64,000 nt of DNA. Source: Sphaerotilus montanus (GTDB lineage Bacteria > Pseudomonadota > Gammaproteobacteria > Burkholderiales > Burkholderiaceae_C). Below the pieces are notes generated by a model that saw only the letters and a list, made by a program, of their open reading frames with translations, did no database searches and was not told the DNA's origin. Where the stretch lies: contig NZ_JACCFH010000001.1 of NCBI RefSeq assembly GCF_013410775.1, positions 2,666,001 through 2,730,000 on the forward strand. Reading direction: 5' to 3'. Positions within the stretch are counted from its first letter, which is position 1. Each line of letters opens with the position of its first letter. Positions 55,092-63,667 of the stretch are shown here, in pieces. Position numbers and translations under genes: made by a program.

Positions 55092-56831
55092 TCAGAACAG
55101 GAAGTAGCGCTGCCCCATCGGCAGACTCGTCGCCGGCTCGCAGGTCAGCAGTTGCCCGTCCGCCCGCACCTGATAGGTCTGCGCGTCGATCTCCATCACC
55201 GGCAGATAGTGGTTGTGCACCATGTCGGCCTTCTTCGCGGTGCGGCAGCCCTTCACCGCCGCCAGCGTCTTGCGCAGACCATACGCCGCGCCCACTCCGC
55301 CCGCGAGCGCCGACTGGCTGACGAAGCTCAGCGATGTCCGCGTGAGCGCGCCGCCGTAGGAGCCGAACATCGGCCGGTAGTGCACCGGCTGCGGCGTCGG
55401 AATCGAGGCGTTTGGATCGCCCATCGCGGCCATCGCGATGAAGCCACCCTTGAGCACCAGGCTCGGCTTCACGCCAAAGAACGCCGGCCGCCAGAACACC
55501 AGATCCGCCCACTTGCCGACCTCGACCGAGCCGACCTCGTGGCTCACGCCGTGGGTGATCGCGGGGTTGATGGTGAGCTTGGCGAGGTAGCGCTTGATGC
55601 GGGCGTTGTCGTTCCGGTCGGTGTCGCCGGGCAGCTTGCCGCGCTGCGACTTCATCTTGTGCGCCGTCTGCCAGCAGCGGATCAGCACCTCGCCGACACG
55701 GCCCATCGCCTGCGAGTCCGACGAGAACATGCTGATCGCGCCGAGGTCGTGCAGGATGTCCTCGGCGGCGATCGTCTCGCGGCGGATGCGCGATTCGGCA
55801 AAGGCCAGATCCTCGGCGAGCGACGCATCCAGGTGGTGGCACACCATGAGCATGTCCAGATGCTCGTCCAGCGTATTGATCGTGTACGGCCGCGTCGGGT
55901 TGGTGGACGAGGGCAGCACGTTGGCCTCGCCGACCACCTTCATGATGTCGGGCGCATGGCCGCCGCCCGCGCCTTCGGTGTGGAAGCTGTGGATGGTGCG
56001 GCCCTTGAAGGCGGCGACCGTGTCCTCGACGAAGCCGGACTCGTTGAGCGTGTCGGTGTGGATCGCGACCTGCGTGTCGGTGTCCTCGGCCACGCCCAGG
56101 CAGCAGTCGATCGCCGCGGGCGTCGTGCCCCAGTCCTCGTGCAGCTTCAGGCCGATGGCGCCGGCGTCGATCTGCTGGCGCAAGGCTTCCGGGCGGCTGG
56201 CGTTGCCCTTGCCGAGGAAGCCGATGTTCATTGCGAAGGCATCCGCCGCCTGCAGCATCCGGGCGATGTTCTCGGGGCCGGGGGTGCAAGTGGTCGCGAA
56301 CGTGCCGGTCGCCGGACCCGTGCCGCCGCCGAGCATCGTGGTGACGCCGGAGGTCAGCGCCTCCTCGATCTGCTGCGGGCAGATGAAGTGGATGTGGCTG
56401 TCGATGGCGCCCGCCGTGACGATCATGCCTTCGGCGGCGATCACCTCGGTGCCGGGGCCGATGACGATGTCCACGCCGGGCTGCACGTCCGGGTTGCCCG
56501 CCTTGCCGATGGCGCAGATGCGGTGGCCGCGCAGGCCGATGTCCGCCTTCACGATGCCCCAGTGGTCGAGGATCAGCGCGTTGGTGATGACGCAATCGAC
56601 CGCATCACCCGGGCCGGGGCCGTTCGGGCGCTGGCTCTGGCCCATGCCGTCGCGGATGGTCTTGCCGCCGCCGAACTTCACTTCCTCGCCGTAGCCACCG
56701 GCCCGCAAGGTCAGGTCTTGTTCGACTTCGAGGATCAGGTCGGTGTCGGCCAGTCGCAGCCGGTCGCCGACCGTCGGGCCGAACATCTCGGCGTAGGCAC
56801 GCCGCGGGAAGGTTGCAGAGGACGTCGCCAT
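55092..56831 (-). CDS. ureC: Urease alpha subunit
   Basis: Catalytic subunit hydrolysing urea to ammonia and carbamate. 579 residues from ATG 56831 ([19 protein letters not shown]). Nickel ligands are visible: DSHIHFI (two His), the carbamylated Lys in [29 protein letters not shown] and [14 protein letters not shown] (His, His). The flap with the catalytic Cys and His is [24 protein letters not shown]. Preceded by ureB with a 2-bp gap. Confidence 0.97.
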
Positions 56832-56833
56832 GG

Positions 56834-57139
56834 TCAAAGTGCTCCCTGCACGAGGCCGCGGAAGCCCCACACCTGCCGGTCCCCGGCGAAATCGCACAGC
56901 TCGACCGTGCGCTGCTGGCCCGGCTCGAAGCGCACGGCCAGCCCGCTGGCGATGTTGAGCCGCATGCCGTGCGCGGCGGCGCGGTCGAAGCGCAGGCCGG
57001 CGTTGGTCTCGGCGAAGTGGTAGTGCGAGCCGACCTGGATCGGGCGGTCGCTGGCGTTCTCGACCACGAGGGTCAGCGTGCGCCGGCCGGGGTTGAGGGC
57101 GTGTTCGCCGTCGTCGGTGAAGAGTTCTCCGGGGATCAT
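56834..57139 (-). CDS. ureB: Urease beta subunit
   Basis: Small structural subunit. 101 residues. [46 protein letters not shown] and [26 protein letters not shown] are diagnostic. Ends 2 bp before ureC. In many organisms ureB directly follows ureA; here an extra small gene lies between them. Confidence 0.96.
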
Positions 57140-57361: not shown

Positions 57362-57664
57362 TCAGGCAATGGGTTGGTGCACGGTCACCAGCTTGGTGCC
57401 ATCGGGGAAGGTGGCCTCGACCTGGATCTCGGGAATCATCTCGGCGATGCCGTCCATCACGTCCGAGCGGCGCAGGATGGTCTTGCCCTCGCTCATCAGC
57501 GCGGCCACGGTCTTGCCGTCGCGGGCGCCTTCCATGATGGCGGCGGTGATCAGCGCGATCGCTTCCGGGTAGTTGAGCTTCAGTCCGCGGGCCATGCGGC
57601 GTTCGGCCAGCAGCGCGGCGGTGAAGATCAGGAGTTTGTCTTTCTCGCGGGGAGTGAGTTCCAT
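57362..57664 (-). CDS. ureA: Urease gamma subunit
   Basis: 100 residues from ATG 57664 ([23 protein letters not shown]), the invariant UreA start. Followed by [28 protein letters not shown] and [20 protein letters not shown]. First urease gene on this strand; only 46 bp separate it from the divergent hybrid sensor kinase, so their promoters must overlap coding sequence or each other. Confidence 0.96.
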
Positions 57665-57710
57665 GGCGGGGGGAGGTTGGGCTGGTGCGTTTCTTGAGTG
57701 CGAGAGCGGC

Positions 57711-60700
57711 ATGACCACTGCCGCCGGAGATTCAGCGATCTTGTCTGCACAGGCAGATTTCGGGCCAACCCCTGCAAACCCGCAGGGCCAGGCCGCTGCG
57801 TCGGCCGAGCCACAGCAGCGGGTCATCAAGATCCGCCGCGACTACAACACCTGGGTCGCCAGCGAGACGCTGGAGGACTACGCGCTGCGCTTCGCCCCGC
57901 GCAGCGCCCGGCGCTGGAGCATCGGCCGGGTGGCCAACACGGCGCTCGGGGGGGCTGCATCGTTTCTCGTGCTGGAGGCGGTGGGTGCCACGCTGCTGGT
58001 GCGCTACGGCTTCACGAACGCGGCGCTGGCGATCCTGGCGACCGGGCTGGTGATCTTCCTGGCCGGGCTGCCGATCAGCCTCTGTGCGGCGCGCCATGGC
58101 GTGGACATGGACCTGCTCACGCGCGGCGCCGGCTTCGGCTACATCGGCTCGACCATCACCTCGCTCATCTACGCGAGCTTCACCTTCCTCTTCTTTGCCC
58201 TCGAAGCGGCGGTGATGGCCTATGCGCTGGAGCTGGCGTTCGACATTCCACCGGCCTGGGGCTACCTGGTCTGCGCTGCCGTGGTGCTGCCGCTGGTGAC
58301 GCACGGGGTGACGGTGATCAGCCGGCTGCAGGTCTGGACGCAGCCGCTGTGGGCGCTGATGCTGGTGACGCCCTACGTCTTCGTGTTCCGCGAGAACCCG
58401 GGCGTGCTCGACGGGCTGGTCGGCTACGGGGGCGAGCGCGGGCTGACGGCGTTCGACCCGCTGGCCTTCGGTGCGGCGATGACGGTGGGCATCGCGCTGA
58501 TCACGCAGATGGGCGAGCAGGCCGACTATCTGCGTTTCATGCCGGAGCAGACCCGCGAGAACCGCTGGCGCTGGTGGGCTGGCGTGGTCGCGGGCGGGCC
58601 GGGCTGGGTGGTGCCGGGCGTGCTGAAGATGCTGGGCGGGGCGCTGCTGGCCTATCTGGCGATCCGCCACATGGTGCCGGTGGAGCGGGCGGTCGATCCG
58701 AACCAGATGTACCTCGCGGCCTACGAGTACGTCTTCCCGCACTACGGCTGGGCGGTGGCCGCCACGGCGCTGTTCGTCGTCGTCTCGCAGCTCAAGATCA
58801 ACGTGACCAATGCCTACGCCGGCTCGCTGGCGTGGTCCAACTTCTTCTCGCGCGTGACGCACAGCCACCCGGGGCGCGTGGTCTGGGTCGTCTTCAACAC
58901 CGGCATCGCGCTGATGCTGATGGAGCTGGACGTGTTCCAGGCGCTCGGCCACGTGCTGGGGCTGTACGCCAACATCGCCATCAGCTGGATGATGGCGGTC
59001 GTGGCGGACCTGGTCATCAACAAGCCGCTGGGCCTGAGTCCGAAGGGCATCGAGTTCCGCCGCGCCTACCTGTGCGACATCAACCCGGTCGGCGTGGGCG
59101 CGATGGGGATCGCGTCGGCGGTGTCGGTGGCGGCGCACCTGGGGCTGTTCGGCGACATGGCGCAGGCGTGGTCGGCGCTGATCGCACTGGTGACGGCGCT
59201 GGTGGCGTCGCCGCTGATCGCGTGGTGGACGGGCGGGCGCTGGTACCTGGCGCCGCGCGTCGGCGTGCCGGACGAGGCACCGGGGCAGGAGGAGCCGGTG
59301 GGCCGCTACCGGCGTTACGCCACGCTGCAGCGCTGCACCGTCTGCGAGCGCGACTACGAGGGGGAGGACATGGCGCACTGCCCCGCGTACGGCGGCCCGA
59401 TCTGCTCGCTGTGCTGCACGCTGGACGCCCGCTGCCACGACCTGTGCAAGGCGCCCGAGGCCAGCCTGTCGGCGCAGTGGTCGGCGGTGCTGCGCTGGGC
59501 GCTGCCGCGCAGGGTGTGGCCGTATCTGGACAAGGGGCTCGCCCACTACCTGCTGCTGATGCTGGTGGCGGCGCCGTTGCTGGGCGGGCTGGCGGTGGCG
59601 CGGCGCGAACTGGCCCTGCCGACGCTGGCGCTGGTGGCCGGGGTGGTCGCGTGGTGGCTGGTGCTGGCGCACCGCAGCCGTCAGGTCGCGCAGGAAGAAG
59701 CCAACCGCCAGACCCAGGCCCTGCACGCCCAGACCCTGGCGCTGCGCCACGAGATCGCCTCGCACCAGGCCACCGACCGTGCCCTGCAGCAGGCCAAGCG
59801 CCAGGCCGACGCCGCCAACCAGGCCAAGAGCCGCTACATCACCACCATCAGCCACGAGCTGCGCACGCCGCTCAACTCCATCCTCGGCTACGCGCAGCTG
59901 CTGGAGGACGACGAGGCCATGCCCCCGGCGCGCCAGCAGGCGGTGCGCGTGATCCGCCGCGGTGGCGACCACCTGCTGACGCTGATCGAGGGCACGCTCG
60001 ACATCGCCCGCATCGAGAGCGGCAAGCTGCGGCTGGAGGTGCGCCCGATGCGCTTCGCCGACACGATGGACGAGATCGCCCGGCTGTTCGAGCTGCAGGC
60101 GGCGGCCAAGGGCATCGGTTTTCGCTGCGAGTTCTCCAGCCTGGGCGATGCGGCGCGCGTGCCGGCCTGCGTGCGCGCCGACGAGAAGCGGCTGCGCCAG
60201 ATCCTGATCAACATCGTCGGCAACGCGATCAAGTTCACCCGCGAGGGGGCGGTGGTGCTGCGGCTGCACCACGCCCGCGAGATGGCGCGCTTCGAGGTCA
60301 TCGACTCCGGCCCCGGCATGACGCCGGAGGAACTGGCGCGCATCTTCGAGCCCTTCGAGCGCGGCTCGGCCACGGGCGGCGCAGTGACCGGCGGCGCGGG
60401 GCTGGGCCTGACGATCAGCAAGATGCTCACCGACCTGATGGGCGGCGAGCTGACGGTGGAGAGCACGCCCGGCGTCGGCACCACCTTCCGGCTGCGGCTG
60501 TTCCTGCCCGAGGTGCGCGGCGCGCTGGTCGCGCAGGCCGTGGCCCGCCGGCGGCGCACCGGCTACACCGGCCCGCGCCAGTGCGTGCTCGTGGTCGACA
60601 ACGAGGAAGTGGACCGCGGGCTGCTCGTCAGTCTGCTGCAACCGCTGGGTTTCACCATCCGGCAGGCTGCGAGCGGTGAGGCCTGTCTCGCGCTGATGGC

Positions 60701-61268
60701 CGCGCTGCAGGACGGCCGCGACCCTGGTCCGGCGCCGGACGCCCTCTTCATGGACCTGGCGATGCCCGGCATCGACGGCTGGGAGACCCTGCGGCGCCTG
60801 CGTGCCGCAGGGCTGGGCCGGCTGCCGACGGCCATCGTCTCGGCCAATGCCTTCGACAAGGGGCTCGACAACGACGTCGGCATCCAGCCGGCCGACTTCC
60901 TGGTCAAGCCGGTGCGGGTGGACGAGCTGCTCGACTGGCTCGGCCGGCGGCTGGCCCTGCAATGGATCGAGGCGCCTGCCACCGCCTCGGCCCGAGCTGC
61001 CGAGGGGGCGCAGCCGGCCGCGGCCATGCCGGACGCCGGACGGCTGCGCGCGTTGCACGAGGCCGTCTCGCTCGGCCATGTGCGCGGCGTGCTGCGGCTG
61101 CTGGATCTGCTGGACGCCGAACGGCCCGACTGCCGTGATTTCTCAGACCGGCTGCGCACGCTGGCGCGGCAATTCCAGCTGGATGCCATGAGCGGATTGC
61201 TCCGCCAGGCCCTCGATGTCTCAACCCACGCCGCTTCCGGGGCGAATCCTGATGAACCTCCTGCCTGA
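57711..61268 (+). CDS. NCS1 permease-domain hybrid sensor histidine kinase
   Basis: 1185 residues from ATG 57711. Residues about 35-520 are a purine/cytosine/allantoin permease (NCS1) with ~12 membrane helices ([64 protein letters not shown]). Then a cysteine cluster at 542-579 (Cys-x2-Cys-x11-Cys-x7-Cys-x2-Cys-Cys-x5-Cys-x3-Cys). Two more membrane helices (about 600-650), a coiled coil (660-705), a HisKA with phospho-His near 715 ([20 protein letters not shown]), HATPase boxes ([20 protein letters not shown]), a REC domain ([20 protein letters not shown], phospho-Asp about 1014) and a helical tail. It divides urease from urea transport genes, so it probably senses urea or a pyrimidine-like compound; inference. 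Confidence 0.9.
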
Positions 61269-62208
61269 CCGAACCGACCGCAGCGCCGACGTGGTGCTGA
61301 TCGTCGACGACATGCCCGACAACCTGGCGGTGCTGCACGACGCGCTGGACGAGTCAGGCTACACCGTGCTGGTCGCGCTGGACGGCGAGACGGCCCTCGA
61401 CCGGGCGGTGCGGGCGCAGCCGGACGTGATCCTGCTCGACGCGGTGATGCCGGGCATGGACGGGTTCGAAGTGGCCCGCCGGCTCAAGGCCGATCCCGCC
61501 ACCGCGTCGATCCCGGTCATCTTCATGACCGGCCTGACCGAGACCGAACACGTCGTGGCGGCCTTCGCGGCCGGTGGCTGCGACTACGTCACCAAGCCGA
61601 TCCGTGCCCGCGAGGTCATCGCCCGCATCACCGCGCACACGCTGGCCGCCCGCGAGCAGCAGCAGGCGCGCAACGCGCTCGACGCGTTCGGCCACGCGAC
61701 GCTGGTGGTGCGGCGTGCCGACGGCCGGCTGGTCTGGCAGACGGCGCTGGCGCGGCAGATGCTGGAGACGCACTTCCAGTCCGACGGCCGGCGGGCGCCG
61801 ACGCCGCTGCTGTCCTGGCTGCAGCACGAGACGGCGCGGCTGGGTGCGATCGAGGGGCTGGTGCCCGGCTCACCCTCGGTGACGCTGGAGACCGGCACCG
61901 GCCGGCGCCTGCGCTTCACGCTGCACGAGGCGACCGGCGAGGGCGAGTGGATGCTGGTGCTGCGCGAGGCCGACGACGCCGCCGCGCTGGAGGCGCTGGC
62001 GCTGGCCTTCGGCCTCACCCCACGCGAGGCCGAAGCGCTCTACTGGGTTGCCAAGGGCAAGACCAACCGCGACATCGGCGACATCGTCGGCGCCAGCCCC
62101 GCGACGGTGAAGAAGCACCTGGAGCACGTCTACGAGAAGCTCGGCGTCGAGACGCGCAACGCGGCGGCGGCGGTGGCGATGGCCAAGGTGCCGCAGTTGG
62201 GACGGTGA
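61252..62208 (+). CDS. Response regulator, REC + LuxR-type HTH
   Basis: 318 residues from ATG 61252; ATG 61216 adds 12. An N-terminal receiver with VLIVDDMPDNLAVLHDAL (acidic pair) and phospho-Asp in VILLDAVMPGMDGFEVARRLK, then a middle region of unknown type with PAS-like HATLVVRRADGRLVW, and a C-terminal LuxR HTH (LTPREAEALYWVAKGKTNRDIGDIVGASPATVKKHLEHVYEKLGV). Overlaps the kinase gene by 17 bp, so likely its cognate regulator. Likely targets are the urt and ure promoters beside it. Confidence 0.9.
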   Translation: MNLLPDRTDRSADVVLIVDDMPDNLAVLHDALDESGYTVLVALDGETALDRAVRAQPDVILLDAVMPGMDGFEVARRLKADPATASIPVIFMTGLTETEHVVAAFAAGGCDYVTKPIRAREVIARITAHTLAAREQQQARNALDAFGHATLVVRRADGRLVWQTALARQMLETHFQSDGRRAPTPLLSWLQHETARLGAIEGLVPGSPSVTLETGTGRRLRFTLHEATGEGEWMLVLREADDAAALEALALAFGLTPREAEALYWVAKGKTNRDIGDIVGASPATVKKHLEHVYEKLGVETRNAAAAVAMAKVPQLGR

Positions 62209-62380
62209 GCGGGCCTGTGGCCTCCATGGGCTGGCCTCTATGGTGTGGCGCCAGGCGAGGGGGCTGGCGACCGCTTGTTCGCGTCTACGCCATCTGGCGT
62301 ATTTCACGATCCGACCCCGGCCGGGACACTGCGTGCATCCGATCCACCCGCTTACCAGCCCCTTCCGGAGTCACCCAGTC

Positions 62381-63667
62381 ATGAAGATTGTTTCTGCTTC
62401 CCGTCGTGCGTTTGCCCAGAAGCTCAGCGCCGTTGCCCTCGGCGTCGCCGTGACCACGCTGCCGCTGCTGGCGCACGCTGCCGACACCATCAAGGTCGGC
62501 GTGCTGCACTCCCTGTCGGGCACGATGGCCATTTCGGAAACGGTCCTCAAGGACGTGGCCCTGATGACCATCGACGAGATCAACGCCAAGGGCGGCGTGC
62601 TCGGCAAGAAGCTCGAACCCGTGGTGGTCGATCCGGCCTCCAACTGGCCGCTGTTCGCCGAAAAGGCCAAGCAGCTCATCGACCAGGACAAGGCGGTCGT
62701 GACCTTCGGCTGCTGGACCTCGGTGTCGCGCAAGTCGGTGCTGCCGGTGTTCGAAGAGAAGAACTCGCTGCTGTTCTACCCCGTGCAGTACGAGGGTGAA
62801 GAGCTGTCGAAGAACGTGTTCTACACGGGTGCGGCGCCGAACCAGCAGGCCATCCCTGCGGTCGAATACCTGATGAGCAAGGACGGCGGCTCGGCCAAGC
62901 GCTTCGTGCTGCTGGGCACCGACTACGTCTACCCGCGCACGACCAACAAGATCCTGCGTGCCTTCCTGAAGTCCAAGGGCGTGGCCGAGTCGGACATCAT
63001 CGAGGAGTACACCCCGTTCGGTCACAGCGACTACCAGTCGATCATCGCCAAGATCAAGAAGTTCTCCAGCGAAGGCAAGAAGACCGCCGTCATCTCGACC
63101 ATCAACGGCGACTCCAACGTGCCCTTCTACAAGGAACTGGGCAACCAGGGCCTGAAGGCGACCGACGTGCCGGTGGTGGCGTTCTCGGTGGGTGAGGAAG
63201 AGCTGCGCGGCGTGGACACCAAGCCGCTGGTGGGTCACCTGGCCGCCTGGAACTACTTCATGTCGATCAAGAACCCGGCCAACACCGCGTTCATCAAGCA
63301 GTGGAGCGAGTACGCCAAGGCCAAGGGCATCGCCGGCCACAAGGACAAGCCGCTGACCAACGACCCGATGGAAGCCACCTACCTCGGCATCCACATGTGG
63401 GCGCAGGCGGTCGAGAAGGCCAAGTCGACCGACACCGACAAGGTGATCGCGGCGATGGCGGGCCAGACCTTCAAGGCTCCGGGCGGCTTCATGTCCACGA
63501 TGGACAAGGAAAACCACCACCTGCACAAGCCGGTCTTCATCGGCGAGATCAAGGCGGACGGCCAGTTCAACGTGGTGTGGAAGACGCCGGGTCCGGTCGT
63601 GGCCGATCCGTGGAGCGACTACATCGCCGAGAACAAGGGCAAGAAGAACGTGCCCGAGAAGAAGTAA
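62381..63667 (+). CDS. urtA: Urea ABC transporter substrate-binding protein UrtA
   Basis: Periplasmic urea receptor. 428 residues from ATG 62381. Signal peptide MKIVSASRRAFAQKLSAVALG...AHA, then the UrtA signature TIKVGVLHSLSGTMAISETVLKDV, VVVDPASNWPLFAEKAKQLI, FGCWTSVSRKSVLPVFEEKNSLLFYPVQYEGEE and FVLLGTDYVYPRTTNKILRAFL. C-terminal KTPGPVVADPWSDYI. 172 bp after the response regulator; 11 bp before the next gene urtB. Confidence 0.96.
   Translation: MKIVSASRRAFAQKLSAVALGVAVTTLPLLAHAADTIKVGVLHSLSGTMAISETVLKDVALMTIDEINAKGGVLGKKLEPVVVDPASNWPLFAEKAKQLIDQDKAVVTFGCWTSVSRKSVLPVFEEKNSLLFYPVQYEGEELSKNVFYTGAAPNQQAIPAVEYLMSKDGGSAKRFVLLGTDYVYPRTTNKILRAFLKSKGVAESDIIEEYTPFGHSDYQSIIAKIKKFSSEGKKTAVISTINGDSNVPFYKELGNQGLKATDVPVVAFSVGEEELRGVDTKPLVGHLAAWNYFMSIKNPANTAFIKQWSEYAKAKGIAGHKDKPLTNDPMEATYLGIHMWAQAVEKAKSTDTDKVIAAMAGQTFKAPGGFMSTMDKENHHLHKPVFIGEIKADGQFNVVWKTPGPVVADPWSDYIAENKGKKNVPEKK

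Follow-up and report, generated by a model that had tools for sequence, protein, structure and literature searches.

A hybrid histidine kinase with an NCS1-type N-terminal domain, encoded beside urea genes in Sphaerotilus montanus and near urea or amide genes in distant relatives

Few transporter-fused histidine kinases have been characterised, and their signals are debated. In CbrA and CrbS/MxtR, kinases of the SLC5-STAC type, a whole transporter-type domain forms the N-terminal part of the protein, CrbS carries a receiver at its end, and CrbR needs a palindromic motif, as given in the available text of the reports (PMC5715377, PMC7918813, PMC13022988). In the Kuenenia sensor kinase, an Amt-type ammonium transporter domain is fused to a histidine kinase, again for a nitrogen compound (available text of PMC5764959). 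Here we describe a hybrid sensor kinase encoded in a 64,000-nucleotide stretch of Sphaerotilus montanus DNA (the window; contig NZ_JACCFH010000001.1, positions 2,666,001 to 2,730,000), whose relatives recur beside genes for urea or amide use. Like CrbS, it has a receiver towards its end. It differs from CbrA and CrbS, where an SLC5 domain of 13 helices is followed by STAC, in having an NCS1-type domain of 12 helices, an eight-cysteine module and two more helices, and from the Kuenenia protein in having an NCS1-type domain in place of an ammonium transporter domain. Pfam scans gave no match pointing to an SLC5/SSF or STAC domain in the window kinase, whether Pfam holds a STAC model not being established. 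The protein would thus extend the known transporter-fused kinases by an NCS1 type. No description of NCS1-fused kinases was found in the open-licence literature, and one may exist elsewhere; in the available text of one kinase review, 'NCS1 family' occurs merely as a thesis title in the reference list.

The gene and its parts are listed below. Residue counts refer to an alignment of 160 sequences, a set that is redundant for similarity and includes two stand-alone permeases (L180 and L186).

57711..61268, + strand: hybrid sensor kinase of 1185 residues, with NCS1 domain, eight-cysteine module, two transmembrane (TM) helices, HisKA, HATPase_c, receiver and a short tail
57864..59240, + strand: NCS1-type domain, residues about 52-510, with 12 predicted TM helices (hhalign E 6.8e-19 and 7.4e-36; hydropathy)
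59334..59447, + strand: eight-cysteine module (C542, C545, C557, C565, C568, C569, C575, C579), all eight cysteines present in 159/160 sequences
59547..59666, + strand: pair of additional predicted TM helices, residues 613-652, that connects to the kinase part (hydropathy)
59823..60023, + strand: HisKA, residues 705-771, phospho-acceptor His715 (Pfam PF00512; H in 155/160)
60180..60506, + strand: HATPase_c, residues 824-932 (Pfam PF02518)
60585..60935, + strand: receiver domain, residues 959-1075, phospho-acceptor Asp1015 (Pfam PF00072; D in 150/160)

The open reading frame (ORF) is uninterrupted between its ATG and its TGA and contains no N; measured in 600-base steps, its third-position GC content (GC3) is 0.84-0.98. 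A Sphaerotilus orthologue that matches the kinase at 87% across 1174 residues argues against a break in the frame or an assembly join inside the gene. The host genome (5.07 Mb, three contigs) is rated 100% complete, and the nearest relatives among the matches listed are from Sphaerotilus and Leptothrix. The preliminary description, drawn from the letters of the window alone, had proposed a permease of about 12 helices fused to HisKA, HATPase and receiver domains in one intact gene; the single ORF, the Pfam scans and profile-profile comparison confirm this, and hydropathy averaged over the family gives 12 helices, a cysteine-rich stretch and then two more helices. The eight-cysteine module, the two extra helices and a palindrome 5' of urtA were absent from that description. 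Pfam and the 160-sequence alignment identify the output part as that of a hybrid histidine kinase, with the phospho-acceptor histidine, the ATPase domain and the receiver aspartate in place; no conserved histidine of an Hpt domain was seen in the tail among the aligned relatives. Elsewhere, the NCS1 and eight-cysteine sensor part is joined to other outputs, namely PAS-GGDEF-EAL (L184:8356-12030, G435), PAS-PAS-kinase-receiver (L185) and a plain kinase (L163), and in L204 to a kinase that has Hpt besides two receiver stretches.

The relationship of the N-terminal part to NCS1 carriers was detected by comparing three profiles. A1 comprised the N-terminal parts of 77 relatives and the window protein (78 rows), A2 nine proteins above the PF02133 cut-off, and A3 seven nearer stand-alone proteins, of which both members scanned pass that cut-off. 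By hhalign, A1 matched A2 with a probability of 99.1 (E 6.8e-19, 394 columns) and A3 at 99.9% (E 7.4e-36). Used as queries against the PDB, A2 recovered Mhp1 and CodB at 1e-46 to 1e-48, and A3 recovered CodB at 5.5e-21 and Mhp1 at 2.8e-10. At the level of profiles, the N-terminal domain is homologous to NCS1 over the core helices. Direct searches were silent: single-protein scans of the N-terminal 660 residues gave no Pfam or NCBIfam match, a PDB sequence search with the single kinase protein returned two short chance-level matches and no NCS1 chain, and the PDB search with the 78 sequences of A1 returned no NCS1 chain either, its matches being mostly zinc-finger-like and at E 1.8 or worse. 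PF02133 was not matched by any of the 78 A1 members. Among four stand-alone relatives scanned, L186, L222 and L115 exceeded the PF02133 cut-off and L180 was unmatched. A PF02133 scan of the host genome gave no match, and the family scan therefore misses the NCS1 domain of the kinase.

Substrate-site positions were mapped from CodB by a MAFFT alignment with 20 of the 78 A1 members. Like CodB, the kinase family carries the equivalents of Arg216 and Tyr285 (R275 and Y369, each kept in 160/160), and Asn280 corresponds to N364 (160/160). According to the available text of PMC9379551, CodB sandwiches the base between W108 and F204, which are reported to be conserved through NCS1, and supplies its Na2 hydroxyls from Thr278 and Thr279. 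Here the family departs from CodB and Mhp1: Trp108 is replaced by F161 (151/160) and Phe204 by L263 (155/160), and the two threonines by K362 (160/160) and I363 (156/160, Val in four), leaving neither an aromatic sandwich on TM3 and TM6 nor a Na2 site with Ser/Thr on TM8. Invariant in 160/160 are E165, Q266, E269, Q270, D272, K362, N364 and N367; E165 stands at the place taken, by hand mapping from alignments, for Gln121 of Mhp1. The pocket positions F161, E165, L263, Q266, K362 and N364 are identical in the two aligned stand-alone relatives. The absence of the aromatic pair and the Na2 hydroxyls that nucleobase NCS1 carriers possess disfavours purine-type ligands. We infer that the NCS1 domain of the kinase does not hold a flat base in a sandwich, that a ligand both small and polar would suit it better, and that it would not be Na+-coupled in the manner of Mhp1 and CodB. 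The preliminary description had proposed checking whether the NCS1 substrate-site residues are retained, and for these two sets they are not.

Relatives of the kinase (E <= 0.001) were found in 52/300 genomes of the order, 19/369 of the class and 61/398 of the phylum, counts that include some weak matches to other permeases. A scan of named genomes matched at least 594 stretches, of which at least 591 encode a relative; in the order scan, one genome (G259) gave a short match in a 534-residue frame. Among plasmid records, 533/72,556 matched, 342 of them from Klebsiella; 510/533 reach a query coverage of 80% or more, and stand-alone permeases are included among the matches.

Gene neighbourhoods were compared at 120 well-flanked loci (at least 6.5 kb on each side) out of 157 scanned. 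Sixty-five are survey loci from regions picked by hand in the order, class and phylum genome scans (80 regions fetched, 77 for the kinase family), and one of them, L186, is a stand-alone permease; the other 55 are the well-flanked loci among the best 80 of the at least 594 stretches and are mostly of urease type. The markers, counted around kinase-family loci only, were urease, urtA/fmdD-like, fmdA and amiF-like genes, and three marker sequences came from two of the counted loci. A urea or amide gene was present at 108 of the 120 loci and a response regulator at 112; the respective figures are 59/65 and 58/65 for the survey loci, 49/55 and 54/55 for the nearest matches, and 45/52 and 47/52 for the well-flanked loci left after removal of redundancy at 80%. 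The preliminary description had made its proposal depend on recurrence of the urea-gene synteny, and the link does recur in distant relatives, as the survey loci demonstrate. There are three main arrangements, with the kinase divergent from ureABC, from an fmd-type operon (FmdA_AmdA, a PF13433 binding protein, and CN_hydrolase in L156 and L194) or, in Roseomonas, from urtABCDE. Many of the neighbourhoods are formamidase loci without urease. Annotated kinase loci include fmd genes in B. vietnamiensis, urease in Mitsuaria, and urtABCDE in Roseomonas and in S. meliloti, the last with three small genes between; in these four and in the Klebsiella plasmid locus described below, no gene name points to the use of purines, pyrimidines, allantoin or hydantoin. 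At L218:2855-6054, a family kinase adjoins two nitrogenase-type (Oxidored_nitro) genes rather than urea genes.

Seven stand-alone relatives of the sensor domain were examined, and six of them lie beside urease or formamidase genes. The Klebsiella protein (L297:6989-8596), named cytosine permease and 45% identical to the sensor domain, follows ureG in a urease cluster; the record is called a plasmid and carries plsY, dnaG and rpoD, so that part of it looks chromosomal, and an insertion sequence (IS) element lies inside the urease cluster. In Acinetobacter (L294:6959-8566) the permease gene precedes ureE, F, G, J, D, A, B and C, L186 is 2-4 kb from ureABC, and the Moraxella and Tsukamurella relatives are near fmdA. 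At L180, a stand-alone permease lies between the kinase and an ORF read as fmdA, both divergent from the kinase. The Streptomyces relative has no urease or formamidase neighbour. Stand-alone plasmid cases comprised four looked at of the 14 plasmid matches listed, besides the query's own record. The seven proteins form one clade (100/98); the careful tree does not separate a position inside the kinases from one beside them (approximately unbiased (AU) test p 0.53), and a quick tree nested the stand-alone permeases among the kinases. Several are called cytosine permease or allantoin permease in databases, and those in the urease clusters of Klebsiella and Acinetobacter may be urea carriers. The ligand guess of the preliminary description, which had embraced both urea and compounds that yield it, is strengthened on the urea side by these relatives; uracil, cytosine, allantoin and hydantoin fare poorly, given the lost CodB aromatic pair and Na2 hydroxyls and the formamidase or amide genes that are the other common neighbours.

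In the window, the kinase is flanked by the following genes.

55092..56831, - strand: ureC, urease alpha, start chosen by reading (Pfam, NCBIfam)
56834..57139, - strand: ureB-like ORF, named by its position and its conservation beside ureA and ureC in relatives
57362..57664, - strand: ureA, urease gamma, divergent from the kinase (Pfam, NCBIfam)
61216..62208, + strand: response regulator with receiver, middle region and GerE/LuxR-type helix-turn-helix (HTH) (Pfam; relative in 58/65 survey loci)
62381..63667, + strand: urtA, binding protein of a urea ATP-binding cassette (ABC) transporter, start chosen by reading (TIGR03407, E 1e-177)
62286..62301, no strand assigned: palindrome TACGCCATCTGGCGTA, putative operator of the response regulator, upstream of urtA (motif scans)

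Exactly 46 bp (57665-57710) separate the start codon of the kinase from that of the divergent ureA, as previously described. No operator could be recognised in this gap; perhaps the ureA promoter is located within the kinase coding sequence, or the start codons are wrongly assigned. On the other side, the regulator gene overlaps the kinase gene by 53 bp and urtA is next. The regulator had been placed there together with urtAB; it and urtA are indeed in the window, while the urtB-like permease ORF is found beyond the end of the window, along with urtD- and urtE-like ORFs (L225). By its Pfam receiver and GerE HTH the regulator is of the NarL/LuxR type, and no Pfam family matched the roughly 125 residues between them (61633-62010).

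Regulators of the NarL type bind sites of 7-2-7 form. Upstream regions of the kinase loci contain a dyad, TACGT-N6-ACGTA, in 13/61 cases, against a mean of 0 in 10 block shuffles (the best dyad of any kind reached 3-7 per shuffle). A matrix built on 14 sites from 13 loci, to which the window contributed no site, scored above the 99% point of block shuffles in 28/61 regions, the 13 matrix loci included. Its best match in the whole 64-kb window is at 62281-62306, between the regulator and urtA. The strict pattern TACGYCA-N2-TGRCGTA occurs at many fmdD and urtA promoters, as expected of an operator of uptake genes, and in the host genome it is found at the urtA site alone. Of the nearest 80 loci, all of which were scanned, 16 have urtA downstream; in 15 of these, the best site of the whole locus precedes the urtA match by 78-237 bp. 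Across genomes, 14 strict sites fell in 13/45 kinase genomes versus 0/35 kinase-free ones (Fisher p 0.0004), and after removal of 12 matrix genomes in 10/33 versus 0/35 (Fisher p 0.0003), the p values being uncorrected for kinship and the groups unmatched for kinship or size in both comparisons. Twelve of the 14 sites precede urtA or fall in the interval that separates the kinase from its divergent neighbour; the others are in G119 and in G166, the latter at the far end of the kinase-regulator pair. Four outlying sites, chosen for likeness to the strict form outside the kinase stretches fetched earlier, precede urtA in G1000 (~245 kb from a kinase) and G1010 (~40 kb), amiF in G264 (~10 kb) and, in G119, a gene discussed below.

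The eight-cysteine module, C-x2-C-x11-C-x7-C-x2-CC-x5-C-x3-C, lies between helix 12 and the two further helices, and the lone sequence without all eight cysteines is the stand-alone L186. In a search of 150 genomes (E 0.001), all 15 matches, which came from 14 genomes, fell within the kinases, in frames 894-1231 residues long. Among the seven stand-alone relatives it is kept in L180 and degenerate in the other six. Compared with the PDB it resembled C2H2-type zinc-finger chains, the best whole-chain E of 1.1e-5 being a sum over repeats of a single short stretch and the best individual stretch reaching E 12; in Pfam, Prok-RING_1 and Cript each matched 5/42 members, with best E of 0.011 and 0.033. 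Because these similarities are weak, a RING assignment was dropped and the module is termed perhaps zinc-binding. By inference it is cytoplasmic.

We consider it probable that the kinase is a transporter-derived membrane sensor of urea or short amides that controls urt or fmd uptake operons via the LuxR-type regulator. The NCS1 domain would bind a small ligand, urea or another short amide, and the eight-cysteine module, together with the last two helices, would relay the resulting conformational change to the HisKA/HATPase core. The kinase would then phosphorylate the adjacent LuxR/GerE-type regulator, either directly or with its own receiver in a regulatory role, and the regulator would bind the strict palindrome and control uptake operons, urt in the host genome and fmd (an amide/urea ABC transporter with formamidase) or urt elsewhere. 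With less assurance, we lean towards a wider reading, in which these kinases would form a widespread bacterial family of membrane receptors that detect urea and short amides. The transporter underlying them would belong to an NCS1 clade that has gone unrecognised, one of urea/formamide carriers that are now annotated as cytosine or allantoin permeases, with a coupling module of eight cysteines found only in the family and with swapped outputs, once GGDEF-EAL.

Several other explanations have to be set against the urea/amide sensor. The cysteine module could be the real sensor, of zinc, nickel or redox state, with the NCS1 domain a membrane scaffold or an independent transporter; urease requires nickel, and the conservation of the eight cysteines is nearly complete. 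We nevertheless regard this as unlikely, since the module is degenerate in six of the seven stand-alone relatives while the pocket positions are unchanged in the two aligned, and many neighbours are formamidase loci without urease. Somewhat less probable again is that the sensed compound is one degraded to urea, such as a nucleobase, allantoin or hydantoin. The NCS1 homology itself, the database names of the stand-alone relatives, the one strict palindrome before a nucleoside-permease-like gene and a distant 30% relative beside hydantoinase-type genes in Rhodococcus all speak for such a ligand, but the CodB sandwich and Na2 threonines have given way to F161/L263 and Lys362/Ile363, and the five annotated loci lack gene names of this kind.

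That the kinase reads the state of a neighbouring ABC transporter or binding protein, and not urea itself, has very little probability in our view. An urtA/fmdD-like gene does occur in 46/65 survey loci, yet none is nearby in the other 19, and at L180, where the stand-alone permease and the fmdA-like gene face the kinase, no urtA/fmdD-like gene was found at the locus. We give equally little weight to an ordinary nitrogen-regulation kinase whose urea neighbours reflect operon convenience and whose palindrome belongs to another regulator. Loci without the looked-for genes, one of them the nitrogenase-type locus, and the absence of the strict palindrome from most kinase genomes are in its favour; the restriction of that palindrome, among the 80 genomes compared, to those with the kinase and its 7-2-7 form argue against it. 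Several observations nonetheless count against the urea/amide sensor and its proposed operator. The looked-for urea or amide genes are missing in 6/65 survey loci and 6/55 nearest-match loci, a good site is missing in 33/61 upstream regions, and a strict one in 32/45 kinase genomes. The score of the window site was equalled in 14/200 shuffled windows and is weak evidence alone. The relaxed pattern TACGY-N6-RCGTA does not discriminate (0-16 sites in kinase genomes versus 0-12 in kinase-free ones); its two copies in the host genome, one upstream of urtA, compare with 25 for the reversed control, and this rarity is not special because the reversed control exceeds the pattern in 26/27 other genomes, with or without a kinase. 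The strict site of G119 (L302, position 4063), on a contig other than that of the kinase, precedes a gene read as a nucleoside permease. Control of urease itself, which the preliminary description had envisaged, is unsupported: the putative operator is upstream of urtA, and no site scores in the ureA-kinase gap.

An NCS1 kinase would add another transporter fold to the characterised few, with a strong genomic clue to its ligand. Since the clade also has stand-alone members, the question whether such proteins sense by binding or by transport can be put to the test, and some 'cytosine/allantoin permeases' are suggested to be urea or formamide carriers. A regulator and an operator of urea uptake can be proposed in many environmental bacteria; the plasmid urea-transport cluster (UTS, UrtABC/AmiF) of Klebsiella ST307/CG307 may be a further case. 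The papers on that cluster describe transporter genes (PMC13060141, PMC5506382); in their available text, neither uses 'two-component', PMC13060141 has no occurrence of 'histidine kinase', and PMC5506382 has none of 'kinase'. A kinase of the family and its regulator (L274:9992-14225) are divergent from urtABCDE and a formamidase gene on one K. pneumoniae plasmid, which may differ from that of the papers.

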